Source: Candidatus Cloacimonadota bacterium
GTDB lineage: Bacteria; Cloacimonadota; Cloacimonadia; Cloacimonadales; TCS61
Length of the DNA stretch: 64,000 nucleotides
Direction: 5' to 3'
Assembly: GCA_021736135.1 (NCBI GenBank)
Contig: JAIPGO010000005.1
Coordinates: 1-64,000 of the forward strand
Positions 8,106 to 27,073 of this stretch are shown here, in pieces. The position numbers were made by a program, and so were the translations under genes. The notes beneath the pieces are model-generated. The model saw only the letters and a list, made by a program, of their open reading frames with translations, was not told where the DNA came from and ran no database searches. How positions within the stretch are numbered: position 1 is the stretch's first letter; every line of letters begins with the position of its first letter.

Positions 8106-9220
8106 TGAAGGCAAAGCAGAAGATACATATTTTATTCATAATTTCACTTGCTGTGATCATATCTACAGTGATAGTATCATATCAGATAGAAGCAAGATCA
8201 CAGAAACTACCGGCAGTTGTTAGAGCTGAAAAGGTGTATATCAGTACGATGACTGAGGGTACTATGGGTGACAGCCCTATTGTGCTAATGCAGGAAGTTG
8301 TCAAAAGTGACGTTATTGCACATATAGAAAACAATTTGCTTTCCTTTAAACTGGATACTTTGCGAAAAGAAAAAGAACAATATGAAGCATTGATCACATC
8401 TGCCCAAAGCGGTGATAAGCTTACCCTGGAACTGAATAAACTGGAAGAAGATATTCTGGAAAACAGGCTGGAACTAAAAGAAACGGAACTGGAACTGGCT
8501 ACGATCTCTGAAAAATTAAAGGTTTCAACAGCCCTTACCCAAACTGCTGCCAGACAGTATCAAGCACAGAAGGCACTTCTTGCCGGCAACTTGATTTCAA
8601 ATGGTGAATTTCAAAAAGAGGCTGATAAATACTTTGGGATAATGGCAAAATATGAAGAATTAAGAAATGATTCGCTGTATGCTGCCGGAAAGATAACCAC
8701 GCTGAGCAGCATGATAGATCTGTTATCTGTGAAAAAGGGAATAATCAATTCCAACGTTTCCATATTAGCGTCAGACTATCTTATAGATCTGGATAAAGTG
8801 TACGCCGAGATTAATTACCTGGAAGATGAAATTAACAACCTGACAGTGATTTCTCCGGTAACTGGCGTGGTGACAGATATCAACTTTAGACCCGGAGAAA
8901 AAGTAAAAAAAGGTGACGTGATTGCCGAAATCGCTGATCTGAGCAATATCTGGCTTACGGCTTATGGAAATTCTTTCAGCAGGCACAGTATTGAGGCAGG
9001 CAATGCCGTAACAATTTATTGCGAAAACGGGAAAGATATATATGGCAAAGTTATATCAATTTCTCCCGTAATGGAAAAAGTGAAAGCACTTAGCTCAACC
9101 TTTGAAACCACTAATGCCTACACGAAAGTGGAGATAGCTTTTGACGATATGCAGAAAGCACAGCAATATCTCACTCCCGGTGAAAGACTCTTTGTGAGAA
9201 TAAAACTGGGGAAAAAATAA
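8105..9220 (+). CDS. HlyD/MFP-like membrane fusion (periplasmic adaptor) protein
   Basis: N-terminal TM, coiled coil, lipoyl/barrel-sandwich motif VISPVTGVVTDINFRPGEKVKKGDVIAEIADLSNIW. Confidence 0.85.
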   Translation: MKAKQKIHILFIISLAVIISTVIVSYQIEARSQKLPAVVRAEKVYISTMTEGTMGDSPIVLMQEVVKSDVIAHIENNLLSFKLDTLRKEKEQYEALITSAQSGDKLTLELNKLEEDILENRLELKETELELATISEKLKVSTALTQTAARQYQAQKALLAGNLISNGEFQKEADKYFGIMAKYEELRNDSLYAAGKITTLSSMIDLLSVKKGIINSNVSILASDYLIDLDKVYAEINYLEDEINNLTVISPVTGVVTDINFRPGEKVKKGDVIAEIADLSNIWLTAYGNSFSRHSIEAGNAVTIYCENGKDIYGKVISISPVMEKVKALSSTFETTNAYTKVEIAFDDMQKAQQYLTPGERLFVRIKLGKK

Positions 9221-9300
9221 TATTACCTTTCACGGCTAAACCGGAATCAGAGAAGTTTCCATAATTCTTCTGATTTCAAAGCTCTGCCTGGAATCAGTCT

Positions 9301-9576
9301 TTCTCTCATTAGCCCACGACTTTAGTCGTAGGATTAATATTACATACGTTATTTAGTCACTTCAGTGACTTCTATAATAGATTCAATGTATTACAAGTTA
9401 CATAAGCTATATTTCATTGTGGATTAAAAGAACTGACTAAAGTCACTTACTATCGTTGAAAATCATATAACCCACCATCTGAAGATGGTGGCTAATGAGA
9501 GAGCTATCACTATATATTGCAATATATTAGTGCCATATAATTCCATCTTTTACCCATTAGAACATCTAATATGTCC
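9301..9576 (+). repeat. REP/BIME-like element, left arm of large inverted repeat
   Basis: About 276 bp, reverse complement of 11552-11827 at high identity; internal hairpins cccacgactttagtcgt, agtcacttcagtgact, cccaccatctgaagatggtgg; ends ctctcattagcc/ggctaatgagag. Confidence 0.9.
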
Positions 9577-9585
9577 AAAATCCAG

Positions 9586-9659
9586 GGGCTGAACTTACGT
9601 TCAGCCTTCTTTTTGGAGTGCATTAGCTCCCGCTAATGCAACGAGACGCAGTCGAGTGC
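9586..9659 (+). repeat. Dispersed structured repeat, copy 2
   Basis: Near-identical to 2745-2817. Confidence 0.85.
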
Positions 9660-16554: not shown

Positions 16555-16932
16555 ATGTTAATTGAAATATCGGTTGGGGAATTAGCGGATAAAATATCTA
16601 TCCTGGCAATCAAGCTGGAAAAATTCCGGGATGCAGAGAAGAGGAAGAATGTTGAAAACGAATATGCCATTCTACTGCCCAAAATGCTGGCAACGGGCAT
16701 AAACACGGTTTCCGAGGAATATCTGGCACTCAAGGAAGTAAACCTGAAACTCTGGGATATTGAAGATAATTTACGCATTAAAGAATCGAAAAAAGAGTTT
16801 GATACTCAATTCATTAAACTGGCCAGAAGTGTTTATTATCAGAATGACGAAAGAGCCAGGATCAAGAAAGATATCAACCTTGCCTGCGGTTCCGCTCTTG
16901 TAGAAGAAAAAGAATATGTGGAATATAAATAG
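16555..16932 (+). CDS. DUF6165-like small protein in LPS/glycan locus
   Basis: ISVGELADKISILAIKLEKF...LKLWDIEDNLRIKE..YYQNDERARIKKDIN. Confidence 0.65.
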   Translation: MLIEISVGELADKISILAIKLEKFRDAEKRKNVENEYAILLPKMLATGINTVSEEYLALKEVNLKLWDIEDNLRIKESKKEFDTQFIKLARSVYYQNDERARIKKDINLACGSALVEEKEYVEYK

Positions 16933-16938
16933 CTGAAA

Positions 16939-17919
16939 ATGAAGATATTACTGATACAAATCGACCCTTTTGGAGATGTGTTTATTTCCTCCGCACTGGC
17001 AGATGTGCTTAAGAAACACGATCCGGCGTATGAAATACATTACTGCTGCCGGCAGGGTTTTCACAAAACCTTAAGAAATCATCCGGCATTAGCAAAATTA
17101 CATCTTATAAAACATACTTCCGGCGCTAAAAGCTTGCTGCCCGTTCTAAAACTGCTCTTCCAGTTACGTAAAGAGCGTTTTGACGTTGCCATAGATATCC
17201 AGAATAAACCATATACAGCTTTTTTAGCCTGTCTATCTGCAAAGAAGTCTATTGGCTGGGCAAATTCCAGGCTGAAATTCCTTTTTTCAGACCTGGCGCA
17301 AAGAAAGTGTTTTTCATATCATGCTTTAAGAAGATTAGATCTGCTGGCTCCTTTAGGGATTCAGACGGATAAATTTAATTACTATCTGGATATTGATGCC
17401 GGATCCCAAAAAAGAATGTATTCCTGGCTGGAAGAGCAGACGCTGCTAAATGGGCATTTTATTCTATGTTCTCCAGTCAGCCCCATTGCATTTAAGCAAT
17501 GGAATCTGAAATTATATGCGCAGGTATTAGATAAGATAATTTCGGAGAAGAAACTTCCGGTTGTTTTACTCTGGGGTCCCGGAGAAAAAAGCACCGTAGA
17601 AGAAGTCACCGGATATATGCAGGAAAAAGCAATAATAGCACCGCCAACAGATTTCTTTGAAGCAGGAGCATTAATGCAAAGAGCAGCTTTGCTGCTTTGT
17701 AATGACGGTGGAATAAATCATATTTCCGCAGCAACAGGTGTGAAAACATTAGCTGTTTTCGGGTCTACGTCTCCGGATGCCTGGAGTCCGGCGCCAGTGT
17801 TTCATACACATCATCATATTTATAAAGCCGGTTCTAAAGCTTCTGCCGATAATAGCTTTGGCTTATCGGCACAGGATGTATTTGAAAAAATGACTGAGCT
17901 TCTGACAAAAAAGCTATAA
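16939..17919 (+). CDS. Glycosyltransferase family 9 (heptosyltransferase-like)
   Basis: ILLIQIDPFGDVFISSALADVLK; LLCNDGGINHISAATGVKTLAVFGSTSPDAWSP. Confidence 0.82.
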   Translation: MKILLIQIDPFGDVFISSALADVLKKHDPAYEIHYCCRQGFHKTLRNHPALAKLHLIKHTSGAKSLLPVLKLLFQLRKERFDVAIDIQNKPYTAFLACLSAKKSIGWANSRLKFLFSDLAQRKCFSYHALRRLDLLAPLGIQTDKFNYYLDIDAGSQKRMYSWLEEQTLLNGHFILCSPVSPIAFKQWNLKLYAQVLDKIISEKKLPVVLLWGPGEKSTVEEVTGYMQEKAIIAPPTDFFEAGALMQRAALLLCNDGGINHISAATGVKTLAVFGSTSPDAWSPAPVFHTHHHIYKAGSKASADNSFGLSAQDVFEKMTELLTKKL

Positions 17920-17993: not shown

Positions 17994-19313
17994 ATGTTAA
18001 GAGGAAAAGACATAAAACCAGCCAGCGGCAAATTAGGTGTATTGATAGTTGGCCTGGGAGCTGTATCCACTACGTTTATTGCAGGAGTAGAAGCAATTAA
18101 GAAGGGAATAGCAGAACCCATAGGCTCTCTTACGCAAATGGCAACGATCCGCTTAGGTAAAAGAACTGAAAACAGAACTCCATTGATAAACGATTTTGTA
18201 CCTCTTTCACAATTGAAAGATCTGGAATTCTTTACCTGGGATATTTTTGAAGATAACGCTTACCAGGCAGCCCTTAAATGTGGCGTTCTGGATAAAATCC
18301 TTATTGACAATCTGAAAGATGAACTTTCCGCTATCAAACCTCACAAAGCGGTTTTTTCCAATAAATATGTTAAAAAGCTTAATGGCACATATATCAAGAA
18401 AGCCGATAGTAAAATGGAGTATGCCGAACAATTGATGGAGGATATCACTGCTTTTAAGAAAGAAAAAAATCTTGAGCGACTGGTTATGATCTGGCTGGCA
18501 TCCACAGAAGTTTATATAGAAAACACGGAAGTACATTCTGATCTGGCAAAATTTGAACAGGGTCTGAAAGATAATCATGAAAGCATCTCGCCATCAATGA
18601 TATATGCTTATGCTGCCTTAAAATCTGATATTCCCTTTATTAACGGAGCGCCTAACCTGACGGTTGATATGGGGGCAATGCGCGAACTTGCGGGGAAAAA
18701 TCATCTGCCAATTTGCGGCAAGGATCTCAAAACCGGACAAACTCTGATGAAAACTATTCTTGCTCCCGGTTTTAAGGCACGTATGCTGGGTCTGAACGGC
18801 TGGTTCAGCACCAATATTCTGGGTAATAGAGACGGAGAAGTCCTGGATGATCCCGAAAGTTTTAAAACCAAGGAAGTATCCAAACTCTCGGTAATCGATC
18901 AGATATTGCAGCCTGAGAAATATCCGGCGCTTTACAAAGATTATTATCATAAAGTGCGCATAAACTATTATCCGCCGCGGGGTGATAATAAGGAAAGCTG
19001 GGATAATATAGATATATTCGGCTGGCTGGGTTACCCGATGCAGATAAAGATCAACTTTTTATGCCGTGATTCCATATTGGCTGCTCCGGTAGCACTTGAT
19101 CTGGTACTTTTTGTGGATCTGGCTCATCGTGCTAATATGTCGGGAATTCAGGAATGGCTTTCTTTTTATTTCAAATCACCGATGGCAGCACCGGGTTTAT
19201 ACGCTGAAAATGATCTCTTTATCCAGCAGACAAAATTGAAGAATACTCTGAGATATATGATGGAAGAGGAAATTATTACTCATCTGGGATTAGATTATTA
19301 CGAAGAGATATGA
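17994..19313 (+). CDS. Myo-inositol-1-phosphate synthase
   Basis: KLGVLIVGLGAVSTTFIAG; NGAPNLTVDMGAM; GKDLKTGQTLMKT; GWFSTNILGNRDGEVL; GWLGYPMQIKINFLCRDSILAAPVALDLV. Confidence 0.9.
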   Translation: MLRGKDIKPASGKLGVLIVGLGAVSTTFIAGVEAIKKGIAEPIGSLTQMATIRLGKRTENRTPLINDFVPLSQLKDLEFFTWDIFEDNAYQAALKCGVLDKILIDNLKDELSAIKPHKAVFSNKYVKKLNGTYIKKADSKMEYAEQLMEDITAFKKEKNLERLVMIWLASTEVYIENTEVHSDLAKFEQGLKDNHESISPSMIYAYAALKSDIPFINGAPNLTVDMGAMRELAGKNHLPICGKDLKTGQTLMKTILAPGFKARMLGLNGWFSTNILGNRDGEVLDDPESFKTKEVSKLSVIDQILQPEKYPALYKDYYHKVRINYYPPRGDNKESWDNIDIFGWLGYPMQIKINFLCRDSILAAPVALDLVLFVDLAHRANMSGIQEWLSFYFKSPMAAPGLYAENDLFIQQTKLKNTLRYMMEEEIITHLGLDYYEEI

Positions 19314-20419
19314 AGAAGATAAAGCTTCTTTTCAAAATCGGCTATGTATATCATAAGGCAGGCTTTGATCCGGTAATTGAAAAATTGCTGACAAATCCCG
19401 GCTATGATGTCTGGTTTTCGCTGGATATGGAAAAAAAAAGGCACTTATTTATTGATAGACCTTTTATCGCACCTGTGATCAGGGAATGGGAAAAACAAGG
19501 ATACCGCTTTACTACCGAAACCAGGGGGTTTGACATCGTCATCACTGGAGATACCCTGCGTAATTCTGAAAAATATGGAAAAACACTGCTTTGTTTCCTG
19601 AATCATGGAACCGGCATTAAAAATATCCTGTACCGTAATTTAGCCCGAGTACCGAATGATAAATACCAGATATTCATTGAAGGTGAGCATAGGCATAATT
19701 CCCTGAAAAGTGCCGGTTCTTTACAAAAGAACGAAGCTCACGTGGTGGGTTTACCAAAACTGGACTGGTATTTTCAGGGAAAATATCAAAGGCAGGAAGT
19801 GCTGACAGGATTAGGTCTTGATCCGGAGAAAAAAACACTGCTCTTTGCACCCACTTACAAACCTACCTGCTTATATCAGATCAAGGATGATATTTTTGAG
19901 CAGACCCGTGACGAATTTAATCTGATAGTGAAGCTTCATCCTTACAGCTGGATGGGTAAATATGCTCCCCATAAACAGCATCGTATTTATGAAAAGCGGG
20001 TCAGGAAATTTTCCCATGCCAGATTACTCCCTTTTTCAGATTATAATATTGTGCCATATTATGCCGCTGCAGACGTTATACTCTCCGAAGCTTCCAGTTG
20101 CGTATTTGACTTTTTAGCCTTGAAGAAAACGGGGATCGTCTTTGATCTGGAACCCGCAAAGCATTCCGACGGGCAGTCATTACTGGAGATAGAGAACCGT
20201 GATTTTTTAAAAGATGCCTTTATCCACATAGAAAGTGGCAAGGATATTAATCAGGCAATGAAACTGGCTCTTGAGCCAACACCCGGCATGCTGGCAGCCC
20301 AGGATAACTTCCGAAAAAACTACTTTTATAAACTCGATGGCAAAGCCTCAGAGAGGTTCATTGCCAAAATAGAAGAATTATACAATGAAAGCGGACATGA
20401 AAACATTCCTGAAGTTTAA
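19310..20419 (+). CDS. CDP-glycerol glycerophosphotransferase-like (TagB/TagF family)
   Basis: FLNHGTGIKN, KTLLFAPTYKPT, NLIVKLHPYSW, AAADVILSEASSCVFDFLALKKTGIVFDLEP; start overlaps MIPS stop. Confidence 0.72.
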   Translation: MKKIKLLFKIGYVYHKAGFDPVIEKLLTNPGYDVWFSLDMEKKRHLFIDRPFIAPVIREWEKQGYRFTTETRGFDIVITGDTLRNSEKYGKTLLCFLNHGTGIKNILYRNLARVPNDKYQIFIEGEHRHNSLKSAGSLQKNEAHVVGLPKLDWYFQGKYQRQEVLTGLGLDPEKKTLLFAPTYKPTCLYQIKDDIFEQTRDEFNLIVKLHPYSWMGKYAPHKQHRIYEKRVRKFSHARLLPFSDYNIVPYYAAADVILSEASSCVFDFLALKKTGIVFDLEPAKHSDGQSLLEIENRDFLKDAFIHIESGKDINQAMKLALEPTPGMLAAQDNFRKNYFYKLDGKASERFIAKIEELYNESGHENIPEV

Positions 20420-20428
20420 AGGAAATTA

Positions 20429-21130
20429 ATGAAAACAGCAGTAATTATCGCCGCAGGTATGAGCAGCCGTCTCTGGAGTAAAACCGATAAGACACCCAAA
20501 ACATTGCTGCCGCTGGAAAAAGGTACCATACTATCTAACATTATGGACAGATTGGCTCAAGCGGGCATTACCGATTTTATCATAGTAGTCGGCTGGCAGA
20601 AAGAAGCTATCATCAATTATCTGCAAGACTCTGAATATCAGGTTAAATTTGTGATCAATAACGACTGGCAGAAAGGCAACGGTATCTCCGTAGCCTGTGT
20701 GGAAAGTCATTTACAAACGGCAAACTTCATCCTGTCCATGTGTGACCATATCGTATCTCCTGCGGCTGTTGAAAAGATGATTAATTCTCCGCTCGAAGAT
20801 AATCTGCTGCTGGTTGATTATAATATTGAAGATGTTTTTGATCTTGATGATGCCACAAAAGTTTTAACCGATGAGCAGGGGCGGATATTAAATATCGGCA
20901 AAGAAATAAGTACTTATAACTGCCTTGATTGCGGCATATTCAGACTGGACAGCAGATTTTTTATGGCATTCAGGGACGCTTTGGCAGAAGGTGAAGAATC
21001 CATCAGCGCCGGAATAAAAAGATTGATAAAAACCGGGAACATGAGTTCAGTTAGAATGACTGAAAATGATTCCTGGCTGGATATTGATACACCGGAAGCT
21101 TATGAACATTATCTCAAAACCGGAGGTTGA
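20429..21130 (+). CDS. Sugar-phosphate/alcohol-phosphate nucleotidyltransferase, candidate inositol-1-phosphate cytidylyltransferase
   Basis: VIIAAGMSSRL..TPKTLLPL; NDWQKGNGISVACVESHL; ILSMCDHIVSPAAVEKM; SWLDIDTPEAYEHYL. Confidence 0.75.
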   Translation: MKTAVIIAAGMSSRLWSKTDKTPKTLLPLEKGTILSNIMDRLAQAGITDFIIVVGWQKEAIINYLQDSEYQVKFVINNDWQKGNGISVACVESHLQTANFILSMCDHIVSPAAVEKMINSPLEDNLLLVDYNIEDVFDLDDATKVLTDEQGRILNIGKEISTYNCLDCGIFRLDSRFFMAFRDALAEGEESISAGIKRLIKTGNMSSVRMTENDSWLDIDTPEAYEHYLKTGG

Positions 21131-22170
21131 GCAAGGTTAAACTCTGATCTGATTAATTCTGCTATCTTAATCCCTGCAGAACCGTCGGTATTGGAAAACA
21201 TTAGTTTTCTTGCCCGTTCCCGGGCTGTCTTTTTCAGGTCTGGTTCTTTAATATACCGGTTTATGGCTGGAAGTAATTCGTCAAATCCATTGATCTGCAG
21301 ACTGAAATCTTTAATCATATCAAGCACATAAGGCACAAAGCGTGGTGCTGGGGGAACAGTAAACGTGATTATCGGCTTATCAAGAGCACAGCATTCTGCC
21401 AGTATGGAAGATGTGTCGCCAATACAGATATCTGCCAGCATAATATAAGGTATGTTTTCATAATCCTTGATGAGATGCACACCCGGCATTTGCTCGAAAT
21501 ATTCACTTATTGCCGGATCAGTCCAGGGATGCAATGTCACCAGCACATTAAATTCTAAAATTAATTCCCTGATCCTTTTTTTCCATATTTCTAAGGCAGA
21601 CATACCCGATGCCGGCCAGGTGGCAGTAAAAAGCAGATTTTTTTTATTATTATCAAATTTCAGTTTTCTTTTTAAGAACTTAATTTCCTCTAAACTGATT
21701 TCTCCTTTAAAAAAGGCATCAAGCCGGGGATAACCGAGTCCTATGCCGTTGGTGATCCCTTTTTTTAAAGCGATATCAGCTTCATTCTCACTTGTGAAAA
21801 TGAACCTGGAAAAAAGCAGAAATGCGCCTTTTCCCGGTAATTCCTTAAAATGAAAAGGTCCATGCCGCATCCCGATCTTTTTAATTCCGGCTGCAGTAAA
21901 TTTATGAGCAGACAGACGGCACATCAGCACACCTTGCGGATAAGCAGGTAATACCCTTGATTTAATTCCCTTTGCTGCCAGTCCACGCTGAACTTTCCTG
22001 TTTCTGGCTATGATCTTAAGCTCAGGTATCAGGCGGATAACGGGTAACATCATCTGCCAGTCAAGAAGGTTATCACAATAAGCGCCATAATAATTATTCA
22101 ATTTAAAAAGTGACAACACCTTGAATATTAGTGTTGAGGGTATTTTTATGAAATAATAACTGAAAACCAT
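21109..22170 (-). CDS. CDP-glycerol glycerophosphotransferase-like protein
   Basis: RHGPFHFKELPG, LLFTATWPASG, NVLVTLHPWTDP, MLADICIGDTSSILAECCALDKPIITF. Confidence 0.72.
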   Translation of the reverse strand: MVFSYYFIKIPSTLIFKVLSLFKLNNYYGAYCDNLLDWQMMLPVIRLIPELKIIARNRKVQRGLAAKGIKSRVLPAYPQGVLMCRLSAHKFTAAGIKKIGMRHGPFHFKELPGKGAFLLFSRFIFTSENEADIALKKGITNGIGLGYPRLDAFFKGEISLEEIKFLKRKLKFDNNKKNLLFTATWPASGMSALEIWKKRIRELILEFNVLVTLHPWTDPAISEYFEQMPGVHLIKDYENIPYIMLADICIGDTSSILAECCALDKPIITFTVPPAPRFVPYVLDMIKDFSLQINGFDELLPAINRYIKEPDLKKTARERARKLMFSNTDGSAGIKIAELIRSEFNLAQPPVLR

Positions 22171-22177
22171 AATTATT

Positions 22178-23185
22178 TCAGGGCTGGAAATTCTGCCTTA
22201 TCGTCTCGAATACAGCTTCCGGCTTGATCAGCTCCATACAGTTATGGTGCTGCAGCGGACATTGACGGCTGCCATGCATTCCGCAGGGACGGCATGCCAG
22301 CTCCATTTCCAGAACCTGATCATTTTCCCGGTTAGGATAATAGCCAAAACTCTCTACTGTCGGTCCAAAAAAGGCATAAACAGGAGTATTAACCGCATTT
22401 GCCAGGTGCAAAGGACCGCTGTCATTTGATATCAGCAATTTTGAACGGGAAATGAGCGCTGCTGATTCAGTTATCTTGAGTTCTCCGCAACTGTTATACG
22501 CATTAACACCTGATATTTCAATGATTTGTGTAGCCAGAAATCTATCTGCCCGGCTGCCGATAAAGATCAGCGAAAATCCCGCCTCTGCCAGATATCGTGT
22601 TAATATTCCAAAATATTCCTTTTTCCAGCGCTTGGTTGCCCATACGGAGCCGGGGGCTATGAGTACTGGCTTTTTATCTTTTTCCAGAAAATTCTCTGCT
22701 GCTTCATAATCTGCTTTGGTAAGAAATAATTCCGTCCGGTTATCCAGTTTGTCAGAGCAGATGGGACTCAATAAATGCAATATTCTATCTGTTACATGAC
22801 CTTCAGAAGGATATTTTACTTTTGTAGTAAGTAAAACCCGGCTATGGTAGCGATCAAAACCGATCCTTTCTGGTATATTGGAAAAAAGCAGCAGAAAATT
22901 CGTGGTCAGATGGCTATGAGGTGTGATAGCCAGATCATATTTTTTACTTATTAAGCGGGGAACCATTTTGAGGAAATTATAGAGTTTTTGATGATATTTA
23001 TCAAAAAGTATCACTTCATCCAGATGGGGATTATTTTTCACCAGTTCATAAGTCCGTGGTGTCGTGAGAAAATCAATCTTTGCCTTCGGAAACAGTTTTC
23101 TGGTCTCGCGTATCAGTGGCGTTGCCAGGATAATATCCCCCAGAAATGCTGTATGAGCAATCAGGATACGTTTATATTCTTTCAT
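22178..23185 (-). CDS. Glycosyltransferase family 9 (heptosyltransferase II-like)
   Basis: RILIAHTAFLGDIILATPLIRETRKLFP; LISNDSGPLHLANAVNTPVYAFFGPT. Confidence 0.88.
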   Translation of the reverse strand: MKEYKRILIAHTAFLGDIILATPLIRETRKLFPKAKIDFLTTPRTYELVKNNPHLDEVILFDKYHQKLYNFLKMVPRLISKKYDLAITPHSHLTTNFLLLFSNIPERIGFDRYHSRVLLTTKVKYPSEGHVTDRILHLLSPICSDKLDNRTELFLTKADYEAAENFLEKDKKPVLIAPGSVWATKRWKKEYFGILTRYLAEAGFSLIFIGSRADRFLATQIIEISGVNAYNSCGELKITESAALISRSKLLISNDSGPLHLANAVNTPVYAFFGPTVESFGYYPNRENDQVLEMELACRPCGMHGSRQCPLQHHNCMELIKPEAVFETIRQNFQP

Positions 23186-24266
23186 CTAATAATTCCTGGT
23201 ATAGTATAATATGTTCACGGACAGTATTATCCACAGAAAACTTTTCCACAGACTGCCGGGCATTAGCGCTGAAACCAGCTCTTTCGGCTGGATTTTCTAT
23301 CAGTCGTGACACAGCTGCTGCAAGTTTTTCCGGTTGCTGTGCCGGAACCAGCAAACCATTTTCATTATTTTTTATCATTTCTGGAATACCACCTCCATCT
23401 GTGCAAACGCAGGCTCTTCCGCAGGCAAGGGCATCCAGAACACTTGTGCCTAATCCTTCATATTTCGATGCCAGTATAAAAATATCAAAACTGTTGAGAA
23501 ACCAGCCAACTTCCTCGCGGAAACCCAGAAACCTGAAACGCTCACTAATCCCCAATTCCGTGGTCATTGCCTCCAGTTTTTTCCGTTCAGGACCCCTACC
23601 CAAAGCAAGAAATAATGCTGCCGGATATTTCATCAGAACAATTTGCGCTGCTTTGATAAGAGTCGGATAATCCTTGTGACCGACGAGAGCAGCTATTGTG
23701 CCAATTATGATGTTATGCTCAGGGAAATGCTCTCCTTTGATAAAATCTGCCGGAGGAAGCTGAATTGACAAACGCTCCAGCTCTATTCCGGAATGGATAA
23801 GCTGCAGCTTATTTTCCGGTATGCCGTCACTCTTGCAGATTTCCATTATATTGCGGGAAATGCATACCAGACGGTCTAACATCGAGTTCTTATATTTTAT
23901 AAATCCCGACATTTTACTCTTAATATGAAAATCCACTCGCCTTGAAGCAACCAGTTTCAAATGGGGCATAAGAAATTTCACCTGTAATCCCAAAGTTAAA
24001 GCATAAGAACTGTGACAGTGTATGAGCCTGACTTTATTTTTGCGGCACAATTTTACAATTTTGTAGATAACCGCGGGATTGACTCTGTAATGGAAATTAA
24101 ATGCGGCAAAGGGAATATCGTTTTCCCGGCAATATTTCTCCAGAGGTGATTTGCTGCTGCAGGCAATTATTGATGCAACTCCTGCGATATTTAGTCTCTC
24201 CACCAGATAAACAACCTGCCGCTGCCCGCCTTGCCAGACTTTTTCCGGATCAATGTGTAAGATCAT
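23172..24266 (-). CDS. Glycosyltransferase family 4
   Basis: FDIFILASKYEGLGTSVLDALACGRACVCTDGGGIPEMIKNNENGLLVP. Confidence 0.88.
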   Translation of the reverse strand: MILHIDPEKVWQGGQRQVVYLVERLNIAGVASIIACSSKSPLEKYCRENDIPFAAFNFHYRVNPAVIYKIVKLCRKNKVRLIHCHSSYALTLGLQVKFLMPHLKLVASRRVDFHIKSKMSGFIKYKNSMLDRLVCISRNIMEICKSDGIPENKLQLIHSGIELERLSIQLPPADFIKGEHFPEHNIIIGTIAALVGHKDYPTLIKAAQIVLMKYPAALFLALGRGPERKKLEAMTTELGISERFRFLGFREEVGWFLNSFDIFILASKYEGLGTSVLDALACGRACVCTDGGGIPEMIKNNENGLLVPAQQPEKLAAAVSRLIENPAERAGFSANARQSVEKFSVDNTVREHIILYQELLDERI

Positions 24267-25008
24267 TCTGCCGCATTTCCCAGAGTTTTAGATATTTCAG
24301 GTACTGTCCGATCGCTGAATTTTCACAAAGTAGAAATCCTGTTTTGCCATCCCGGAATCCCTGCTTGAAAAAATACATTACAATGAATTTCCACATTCCC
24401 TGAAACAGGGCTCCGGTTATAGTGTATTTTTTAATTTTACTATATTTCTCCTCCACATTCAGGTTTGTGTAAAAATTGATCTTGCTTACATGGTCTGAAA
24501 GATTGGGATATGTATAGTGATTAAGGGGAGCGGTGATAAGGCTGATCTTTGCTTTTGTTTTCACTCCTTCATGCACTACTTTTTCATTGAATTCTGCCGT
24601 TTTGCGATTGAATAACCTCAACGGGAAATCATCCTGCCAGCCACACCAGCGGATCTTTTTACCCAGATACCAGGAGATGCGCTTAATTTTGTATACCTGA
24701 GCTTCGTGCAATTGCGGCTGTAGTTCCAGAATCTTCACTTTCAGCTCTGGTGACACTTCTTCATCGGCATCAAGAGAAAGTATCCAGTCATTTTGCGCTG
24801 CTTCCACTGCTTTCTGTTTCGTTCTGCCAAAACCGTCCCAGGAAAGTTTTATTACCCTTGCTCCACCTGATTCCGCTAGTTGTAATGTGGTATCCTTCGA
24901 TCCCGTATCTGCCACAAGGATTTCATCTGCCCATTGTACTGATTGCAGGCATCGAATTATATTTTTCTCTTCATCTTTTGTAATTATCACAACTGATATC
25001 TTACTCAT
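24250..25008 (-). CDS. Glycosyltransferase family 2 (WaaE/KdtX-like)
   Basis: ISVVIITKDEEKNIIRCLQSVQWADEILVADTGSKDTT; ILSLDADEEVSPEL. Confidence 0.88.
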   Translation of the reverse strand: MSKISVVIITKDEEKNIIRCLQSVQWADEILVADTGSKDTTLQLAESGGARVIKLSWDGFGRTKQKAVEAAQNDWILSLDADEEVSPELKVKILELQPQLHEAQVYKIKRISWYLGKKIRWCGWQDDFPLRLFNRKTAEFNEKVVHEGVKTKAKISLITAPLNHYTYPNLSDHVSKINFYTNLNVEEKYSKIKKYTITGALFQGMWKFIVMYFFKQGFRDGKTGFLLCENSAIGQYLKYLKLWEMRQNDLTH

Positions 25009-25019
25009 CTGAAACCTCT

Positions 25020-26096
25020 TCAGTTCTCGGAAAATACATTTAAAAACTCTTTTACCATGGTTTCTTCGGAAAAGTTATTTTTTATTTTTTGTTGAGCATT
25101 TTTCCCAAATCTCTCGCGAAGACTCTGGTCTGTAACTAATAACTTAAGCTTATCAACGAGGGATTCCACGTTATTCTCTTTAATTAGAAATCCATTTACA
25201 TTATCGGTGATTAATTCTGCAGCAACTCCTACGTCAGTAGAAATCACAGCTTTTCCTAATGAAAAATATTCCAGGAGTGTAATAGCAAAAGATTCATAGA
25301 AAGAGGGCATTACAGCAATGTCATAAATGGAATTAATGTTGGGAATATTAGAGTTGGGAATAAATCCGGTAAAGATGACTCTGGACTGTAACTCCAAACT
25401 GGATACTAATGATTTTAATTCTTCCTGAAACACTCCGGAACCCGTGATCATAAGAACAACATTTTGATATTCTGCAACAAATTCTTTGAATGCCCGGATC
25501 AGTATGTGAACACCCTTTTCTTTCACCAGCCTGCCTGTAACACCGATTACAAGCGCATTATCCGGGATATTAAATAATTGCTTTGCTTTAATAGTCTCCT
25601 GCCGAGAAACTTGTTGTATTTTAGTGCCAATATATACAACAGCGAGTTTTTTTTCTTTGAGATGTGGAAATAATTCCAGAGATAGTTCTTTTACTCTCCG
25701 GTAGGGGAATATAGATTTATCCACAAGTAATTCATGAATCCATTGATGCCTGTTAAAATCACGTTCATTACCAATTAACCTGAAGTTGCGAATTTTACAT
25801 ATCCGGGAGGCTATGCCTCCGGCAATTACCTCTTTATGAATATTACTGACTACTACATCGATACGGTTTCTTTTTACGAATCTTATAAAGTATAATATTA
25901 GAAGTGGATTGTAATCCATACCAAAAGTTCTGGGTATTATTTTCAGTTCTTTTGAAAATTTGCTGGTCGAATCTGAATTCTTATTAGAGATTATCCAGGT
26001 CTGGTGATTTTCCTCAGCCAGTTTCACGGCTAAGCGATCAATTAAACTTAGTACTCCACCCCAGTTTCTCTTGTTATTGATAAATAATATATTCAT
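25020..26096 (-). CDS. Glycosyltransferase family 4
   Basis: VIGVTGRLVKEKGVHILIRAF; IAVMPSFYESFAITLLEYFSLGKAVISTDVGVAAELI. Confidence 0.88.
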   Translation of the reverse strand: MNILFINNKRNWGGVLSLIDRLAVKLAEENHQTWIISNKNSDSTSKFSKELKIIPRTFGMDYNPLLILYFIRFVKRNRIDVVVSNIHKEVIAGGIASRICKIRNFRLIGNERDFNRHQWIHELLVDKSIFPYRRVKELSLELFPHLKEKKLAVVYIGTKIQQVSRQETIKAKQLFNIPDNALVIGVTGRLVKEKGVHILIRAFKEFVAEYQNVVLMITGSGVFQEELKSLVSSLELQSRVIFTGFIPNSNIPNINSIYDIAVMPSFYESFAITLLEYFSLGKAVISTDVGVAAELITDNVNGFLIKENNVESLVDKLKLLVTDQSLRERFGKNAQQKIKNNFSEETMVKEFLNVFSEN

Positions 26097-26125
26097 CCTT
26101 AGGCTACTATTATATTTAATAATTG

Positions 26126-27073
26126 TTATATATTTTTCAACAGATGATAGTTATGGAATCCGCCCAGATTGCGGCCATTCAGTAGATATTTCTCGATCCA
26201 GCTATGCAGTCGTGTTTTCAGACGCTCATGTTTGTGAAGTTCACGATATGGATTTGGCTTCCCATTCATTTGAAGCTTATCTGCCCAGTTAAATCTGGCT
26301 ATCATTTCCTGCATTACTGCCGGATGTGTATCTTTAAAAACTGCCAGTCGGTTTAAAGGACCATAATCAAATTCCTGGGGTGCCTTCTCATAATAATCTT
26401 CCGCTTTTCCCCTGCCCCAATGCACGCTGTCCAGGGCGCGACGCTTATTCTGCATTAAGTACGGTGGACGCACCCAGCCGTAATGATAGATCTCAGCATC
26501 TACTTTTGCCACGTTTATCTTAAATGTGCCTTCCGGCTGACGCGGATTATCATAATAGTCATATCGGCGAAAAGACTGCGCACTCTGCCAAGACCAGATA
26601 TCCGGCTTGTTGCGGATTATCCGTATTTCTTCAGGATACCAGCCATGACCGGCATGATAATGAACATAATCCCCCCAAAAATGCTTGTATCGGAAAAGTA
26701 GACCCTCTACTTCTTCGCGATCAAGCAGTTCTTCACAGCGGTGCTTTATGGTCTCCAGGTATTTCTCATGCACAACTTCATCCGCCTGTACATAAAAAAG
26801 CCAGTCCCCGCTGCATTCGCGACGAGCGATATTTGTCTGCATCCCGTTAATCACACCCTTTTTAAAATACTGTTCTTCCCAGATTGTATCAATGATCCTG
26901 ATCTTAGGATCATTAATCCCTGCTATCAACTCCCGCGTATTATCATCATCATCACCCTTGCCTACCGCAATTATGAATTCATCACAAATCGGCAAAATAG
27001 ACTTGATGGATTCCACCACCGGATAATATAGCTTAACTCCATTGCGCACGAAAGAGAACCCGCTTATCTTCAT
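26126..27073 (-). CDS. Glycosyltransferase family 2-like
   Basis: GFSFVRNGVKLYYPVVESIKSILPICDEFIIAVGKGDDDDNTRELI; GDWLFYVQADEVVHE. Confidence 0.78.
   Translation of the reverse strand: MKISGFSFVRNGVKLYYPVVESIKSILPICDEFIIAVGKGDDDDNTRELIAGINDPKIRIIDTIWEEQYFKKGVINGMQTNIARRECSGDWLFYVQADEVVHEKYLETIKHRCEELLDREEVEGLLFRYKHFWGDYVHYHAGHGWYPEEIRIIRNKPDIWSWQSAQSFRRYDYYDNPRQPEGTFKINVAKVDAEIYHYGWVRPPYLMQNKRRALDSVHWGRGKAEDYYEKAPQEFDYGPLNRLAVFKDTHPAVMQEMIARFNWADKLQMNGKPNPYRELHKHERLKTRLHSWIEKYLLNGRNLGGFHNYHLLKNI

Follow-up and report, generated by a model that had tools for sequence, protein, structure and literature searches.

A putative CDP-inositol module with a TagF-like transferase gene in a probable envelope-glycan locus of a Cloacimonadota bacterium

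The DNA analyzed here (the window) is a stretch of 64,000 nucleotides at the start of contig JAIPGO010000005.1, from the assembly of a Candidatus Cloacimonadota bacterium (GCA_021736135.1; 4.14 Mb, 98% complete). It carries three closely packed genes on the forward strand, predicted to encode a myo-inositol-1-phosphate synthase (MIPS), a protein of the PF04464 family (TagF1) and an inositol-1-phosphate cytidylyltransferase (IPCT), which are met from the opposite strand by a second PF04464 gene (TagF2). It is proposed that MIPS and IPCT supply cytidine diphosphate (CDP)-inositol and that TagF1 puts phospho-inositol on a heptose-containing envelope glycan, a reading to which a probability of roughly 0.7 is assigned. 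The four genes are:

17994..19313, + strand: MIPS, Bacteroides-type myo-inositol-1-phosphate synthase, 439 aa (PF07994/PF01658; 7NWR; BT_1526)
19310..20419, + strand: TagF1, PF04464 CDP-polyol phosphotransferase-like, putative CDP-inositol:glycan phospho-inositol transferase, 369 aa (H99, H210)
20429..21130, + strand: putative IPCT (CDP-inositol synthesis), 233 aa (profile, sequence, tree and fold comparisons)
21109..22170, - strand: TagF2, second PF04464 protein, convergent, of another clade, with AT for PT and E for D

The MIPS reading frame runs 4 nt into that of TagF1, and IPCT follows TagF1 after a gap of 9 nt, exactly the coordinates given for these four open reading frames, including the convergent TagF-like gene, in an earlier note on this DNA. 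The 3′ end of TagF2 overlaps the end of IPCT by 22 nt on opposite strands. Pfam and motif searches also agree with the note in recognizing a MIPS, two TagB/F-like genes and a nucleotidyltransferase with GNG and CDH motifs. The MIPS assignment is supported by full-length matches above the cut-offs of both PF07994 (NAD_binding_5, 333.9 bits) and PF01658 (Inos-1-P_synth, 118.3 bits). The closest solved structure is 7NWR (E = 1.4e-171), and the protein is 63% identical over 419 aa to BT_1526 of B. thetaiotaomicron, for which MIPS activity has been assayed (PMC9246714) and the structure is known.

The nucleotidyltransferase is proposed to be an IPCT that would produce CDP-inositol. Pfam places it in PF12804 (58 bits) and PF00483 (47 bits), both above the gathering score, and out of 18,950 NCBIfam models its top match is the IPCT/DIPPS model at 119 bits, with the runner-up at 89. 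This score misses the curated cut-off of that model (NF041135, 580 bits), which covers the full bifunctional Thermococcales protein, with both domains in one order, and is out of reach for a stand-alone domain; the protein is claimed as IPCT-like and not as a member of the NF041135 equivalog. Among solved structures, the A. fulgidus IPCT (2XME, 7.8e-22) and an IPCT-DIPPS (4MND, 5.3e-21) rank ahead of the T. maritima IPCT (4JD0, 6.6e-17) and a phosphocholine cytidylyltransferase (1JYK, 2.7e-9). Sequence identity reaches 37% to the IPCT half of IPCT-DIPPS fusions from other Cloacimonadota and 32% to the A. fulgidus IPCT, and these proteins have in common the motifs NG.S, DH, DD.TK, GK, D.G.F and W.D(I/V)D. 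The catalytic Arg, Lys and Asp of the T. maritima IPCT, residues named as critical in PMC12275187, are kept as R14, K24 and D106. A maximum-likelihood tree splits all IPCTs, including the references and the fused IPCT-DIPPS domains, from nine other Cloacimonadota nucleotidyltransferases (97/98 support) and likewise sets them apart from two GlmU-like nucleotidyltransferases. The top fold match of the predicted model (pLDDT 71, two-sequence alignment) is again 2XME, with RmlA folds at nearly equal scores, so that the fold match by itself is not deciding. The profile, structure-sequence, tree and fold comparisons favor an IPCT over hexose-1-phosphate or phosphocholine enzymes, which bears out the likeness suspected in the earlier note.

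Both TagF1 (55.3 bits) and TagF2 (50 bits) pass the PF04464 gathering cut-off of 22.1 bits. TagF1 keeps the HGT, APT, KLH and SS..D motifs, and its H99 (NHGTG) and H210 (KLHPY), invariant in 10 orthologues, hold the motif positions of H444 and H584, which are catalytic in TagF (PMC5974469); this correspondence was made by motif and not by direct alignment to TagF. Against the named TagB, TarB and TarF equivalogs TagF1 scores 20–24 bits, short of cut-offs of 500–550, and on sequence grounds it is a PF04464 family member but not TagB, TarF or TagF. An AlphaFold model of TagF1 from the single sequence reached a pLDDT of 32 and was not used. Because TagF1 is a single transferase domain of ~370 residues, the size of TagB or Cps7A and without added polymerase modules, one phospho-inositol transfer appears more likely than a polymer, and the 'glycopolymer' of the earlier note is doubtful. 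The closest functional analogue is Cps7A, a PF04464 enzyme that attaches just one glycerol phosphate to Kdo (PMC11666461). TagF2 is better taken as a component of a general glycan locus without a tie to IPCT, as it belongs to a different clade that also occurs in a genome lacking MIPS and IPCT (G016), and the part in the inositol module that had been given to it is not supported.

The rest of the genome offers no competing use for CDP-inositol. No CDP-alcohol transferase is present in the window, as had been noted, and the sole PF01066 match in the whole genome lies on a different contig and belongs to the PgsA equivalog; neither a DIPPS nor a phosphatidylinositol synthase was found in the genome, and MIPS is thus not explained by such an enzyme elsewhere. 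TagD (glycerol-3-phosphate cytidylyltransferase) was likewise not found in the genome. One TagD-like match turned out to be domain II of RfaE, a heptose adenylyltransferase domain that fits heptose synthesis, and the highest-scoring IspD candidate exceeds the cut-off of the IspD domain without being a TarI equivalog. The two PF04464 genes of the genome are both at this locus.

Among 115 Cloacimonadota genomes, MIPS is encoded in 20, of which 17 have the long type of the window and three (G110–G112) have an archaeal type. Of the 17 long-type genomes, 16 have a PF04464 gene no more than 200 nt away from MIPS or IPCT; the module of the seventeenth (G107) is split between contigs, with MIPS starting at the edge of one and TagF1 stopping 140 nt short of the edge of another. 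IPCT adjoins the long-type MIPS in 15 of the 17, and the contig stops in the remaining two. Close orthologues of TagF1 (at least 61% identity, 61–71% or more, with the next matches at 44% or less) occur in 13 genomes, every one of which has the long-type MIPS (hypergeometric P = 5e-14 by genome and 2e-5 by genus, kinship not modelled). This recurrence of the trio, together with four genomes (G043, G053, G064 and G091) in which the only PF04464 gene stands between MIPS and IPCT, argues that the association is more than chance. The TagF1 clade (100/100) consists of genes that adjoin MIPS-IPCT or are inferred to do so across a contig break, while in G017, G020, G102 and G116 MIPS-IPCT is flanked by members of a second PF04464 clade. 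The IPCTs paired with TagF1 form two groups, 34–38% identical, and one of these groups also serves the second clade. The pairing has therefore been maintained between partners of different history, and a functional link explains this better than mere co-inheritance. Neighborhood conservation, the check put forward in the earlier note, thus ties TagF1 tightly to MIPS-IPCT across genomes.

A similar association is present in a second phylum, sampled as 398 genomes from the phylum to which a Balneolaceae record belongs (Bacteroidota). IPCT was found in 46 of these genomes, and 28 of the 38 IPCT loci examined combine it with a long-type MIPS. A PF04464-like gene lies within ~8 kb in 17 of the 28 loci, directly beside MIPS in seven; another seven have a CDP-alcohol transferase beside MIPS, four have neither and none has both (Fisher P = 3e-4 for the exclusivity, kinship not modelled). 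Six of these TagF genes were checked, with five passing the PF04464 cut-off and one falling just below. They form a third clade, which brings the PF04464 lineages found beside MIPS-IPCT to at least three in two phyla. It appears reasonably probable that CDP-inositol has a third fate, next to di-myo-inositol phosphate and lipids, as the donor for TagF-like transferases that would add phospho-inositol to envelope glycans, with PF04464 proteins recruited at least three times in Cloacimonadota and Bacteroidota.

The genes on either side of the module are predominantly those of glycan assembly:

16555..16932, + strand: DUF6165 protein (PF19662; 47.8 bits, cut-off 27), opening the apparent + strand operon
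16939..17919, + strand: GT9 heptosyltransferase-family glycosyltransferase (PF01075, 111 bits), adjoining the 5′ side of MIPS
22178..23185, - strand: GT9 glycosyltransferase (TIGR02195, lipopolysaccharide heptosyltransferase II equivalog, 139.9 bits, above the cut-off of 134.6)
23172..27073, - strand: glycosyltransferase run, with GT4 at 23172–24266, GT2 at 24250–25008, GT4 at 25020–26096 and GT2-like at 26126–27073

In the proposed pathway, MIPS would convert glucose-6-phosphate to inositol-1-phosphate, IPCT would combine this with CTP to give CDP-inositol, and the translationally coupled TagF1 would move phospho-inositol from CDP-inositol onto an acceptor on the cytoplasmic side. The acceptor is most likely a heptose-containing glycan, like a lipopolysaccharide (LPS) core, made by the surrounding GT9, GT4 and GT2 enzymes. 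Heptose is suggested because a GT9 gene immediately precedes the module here as well as in G007, G107 and G108 (loci L041, L128 and L129), with one nearby in G114 (L043), and the GT9 enzyme at 16939..17919 is a possible candidate for building this glycan. The product would be an anionic phospho-inositol phosphodiester at the cell surface, formed in a single transfer like that of TagB or Cps7A. The protein families, the catalytic residues, the linkage across genomes and the lack of another CDP-inositol consumer or of a CDP-glycerol synthase in the genome support this pathway, and from them we infer the substrate of IPCT, the donor of TagF1, the acceptor, the product and the addition of one residue. 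The suggestion in the earlier note that TagF-like enzymes use CDP-inositol on an LPS-like glycan is thus retained in part: the linkage of TagF1 and the want of another consumer speak for it, TagF2 drops out, and the product and acceptor would be as described above.

Several known systems resemble parts of this pathway. In wall teichoic acid synthesis (TagD/TarI with TagB/TarF/TagF/TarL), a cytidylyltransferase likewise makes a CDP-polyol that a PF04464 enzyme transfers to a lipid-linked glycan, and the catalytic histidines are kept; here, however, an IPCT fed by MIPS replaces TagD, the setting is a Gram-negative GT9 locus and TagF1 is distant from known TagF. The capsule enzymes Cps3D, Cps7A and Cps7D show that PF04464 proteins operate in Gram-negatives (PMC11666461, PMC5974469), but these known enzymes take CDP-glycerol or nucleotide sugars, and the word inositol is absent from both papers. 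The literature searched, in which subscription journals are thinly covered and older glycan-structure papers may be missed, yielded no account of a TagF-type phospho-inositol transferase.

A number of observations weigh against the proposal. PF04464 is widespread in Cloacimonadota (102 of 115 genomes), so that membership in the family does not by itself identify the donor. A profile built from TagF1 only matched no TagF in the PDB at E ≤ 0.1, which leaves the link between TagF1 and TagF to Pfam and the motifs. Substrates vary among nucleotidyltransferases with the IPCT fold, and CpgD, a relative of IPCT, takes phosphoglycerate (PMC12275187). In the f10 genomes fewer glycosyltransferases immediately flank the trio, making the acceptor uncertain. 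Lastly, in G061 IPCT is intact, but MIPS has been lost and TagF1 is reduced to its final ~80 codons (L127, around 8650–9613), apparently what a deletion has left of the trio.

Two of the alternatives are similarly unlikely. The first is that the module makes phosphatidylinositol or inositol sphingolipids, as in Bacteroides and Prevotella, through an unrecognized synthase or through TagF1 acting on a lipid acceptor. The MIPS subfamily is shared with those organisms, seven of the 28 Bacteroidota loci have a CDP-alcohol transferase gene beside MIPS-IPCT, and Heaver et al. (PMC9246714) proposed an inositol-lipid set of MIPS, NTP transferase, CDP-alcohol transferase and HAD hydrolase, with the NTP transferase of an alternative cluster as the maker of CDP-inositol. 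The window locus has neither the CDP-alcohol transferase nor the HAD hydrolase, however, and PgsA is the only CDP-alcohol transferase of the genome. The CDP-alcohol transferase gene beside IPCT in G020 and G102 was considered as a hidden phosphatidylinositol synthase or DIPPS and rejected, being widespread in relatives without MIPS (34 of 115 genomes), and so without a tie to IPCT, and missing from the window genome. This ~300-aa protein stands in some genomes in LPS-type loci adjoining TagF-like genes (L012 7499–8422; L042 9987–10889).

The second is that TagF1 and TagF2 jointly build a chain of poly(inositol phosphate) or poly(glycosyl-inositol phosphate), as might be expected from the two PF04464 genes adjoining IPCT in the window and from the two or more near IPCT in G017, G020, G102 and G116. 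This is hard to reconcile with the single domain of TagF1, the departure of TagF2 from the TagF motif, the presence of its clade where MIPS and IPCT are lacking and the solitary PF04464 gene of G043, G053, G064 and G091.

Slightly less probable still is that a different alcohol phosphate (glycerol, ribitol, choline or glycerate) serves both the cytidylyltransferase and TagF1, with MIPS as an unrelated neighbor. The nucleotidyltransferase superfamily is diverse in substrate (PMC12275187), and members of the clade that is sister to TagF1 accompany a nucleotidyltransferase nearest to a phosphocholine cytidylyltransferase. The window enzyme nevertheless falls with the IPCTs, TagD is lacking, and MIPS adjoins IPCT wherever the contig allows in Cloacimonadota and again in Bacteroidota. 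The sister-clade genes, found in genomes without the long-type MIPS, overlap or abut a different nucleotidyltransferase (L130 7292–9132; L067 401–2241; L061 408–2247; L064 1423–3269), the one in L130 having a phosphocholine cytidylyltransferase as its nearest solved structure. Such pairs may be parallel modules of a donor synthase and a TagF protein with another alcohol donor.

Synthesis of the compatible solute di-myo-inositol phosphate (DIP), with a DIPP synthase encoded at another place in the genome, is very improbable. The pathway shares MIPS, IPCT (its first enzyme) and the CDP-inositol intermediate, and G110–G112 of the same phylum hold an apparent version of it, in which a MIPS of archaeal type precedes a fusion of IPCT and DIPPS (L032 2135–4599; L033 7574–10755; L013 506–2577). 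DIPPS, however, is a CDP-alcohol transferase, and PgsA is the lone PF01066 match in this 98%-complete genome, where the proposed consumer is TagF-like instead. The G110–G112 MIPS are of a different subfamily (22–24% identity to that of the window), in genomes without a TagF1 orthologue.

Should the transfer of phospho-inositol by TagF1 be correct, inositol would become one more polyol that teichoic-acid-type transferases take from a CDP donor, and the retention of MIPS and IPCT in many Gram-negatives without inositol lipids or DIP would be explained. Beyond proposing CDP-inositol for lipids, Heaver et al. (2022) reported trace inositol in a Bacteroides capsule with no route given (PMC9246714), and the module described here is a candidate route.

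Other genes were observed beside the module in particular lineages. In three f13 genomes a secreted protein of ~583 aa is encoded directly after IPCT (L041 5226–6980; L043 5585–7333; L044 2133–3884), and the copy in L041 is a clostripain-family peptidase C11 with a sorting tail. The Stealth family is another class of phosphodiester-forming glycan enzyme, and its phosphotransferase genes neighbor MIPS-IPCT in genomes of Balneolales type (L185 2600–8669, where TagF is present as well; L008 3216–8720). A Stealth gene is also present in the Bacteroidota locus L202 (7167–8348), where a weakly IPCT-like nucleotidyltransferase is paired with a canonical, high-scoring PF04464 protein (214 bits).

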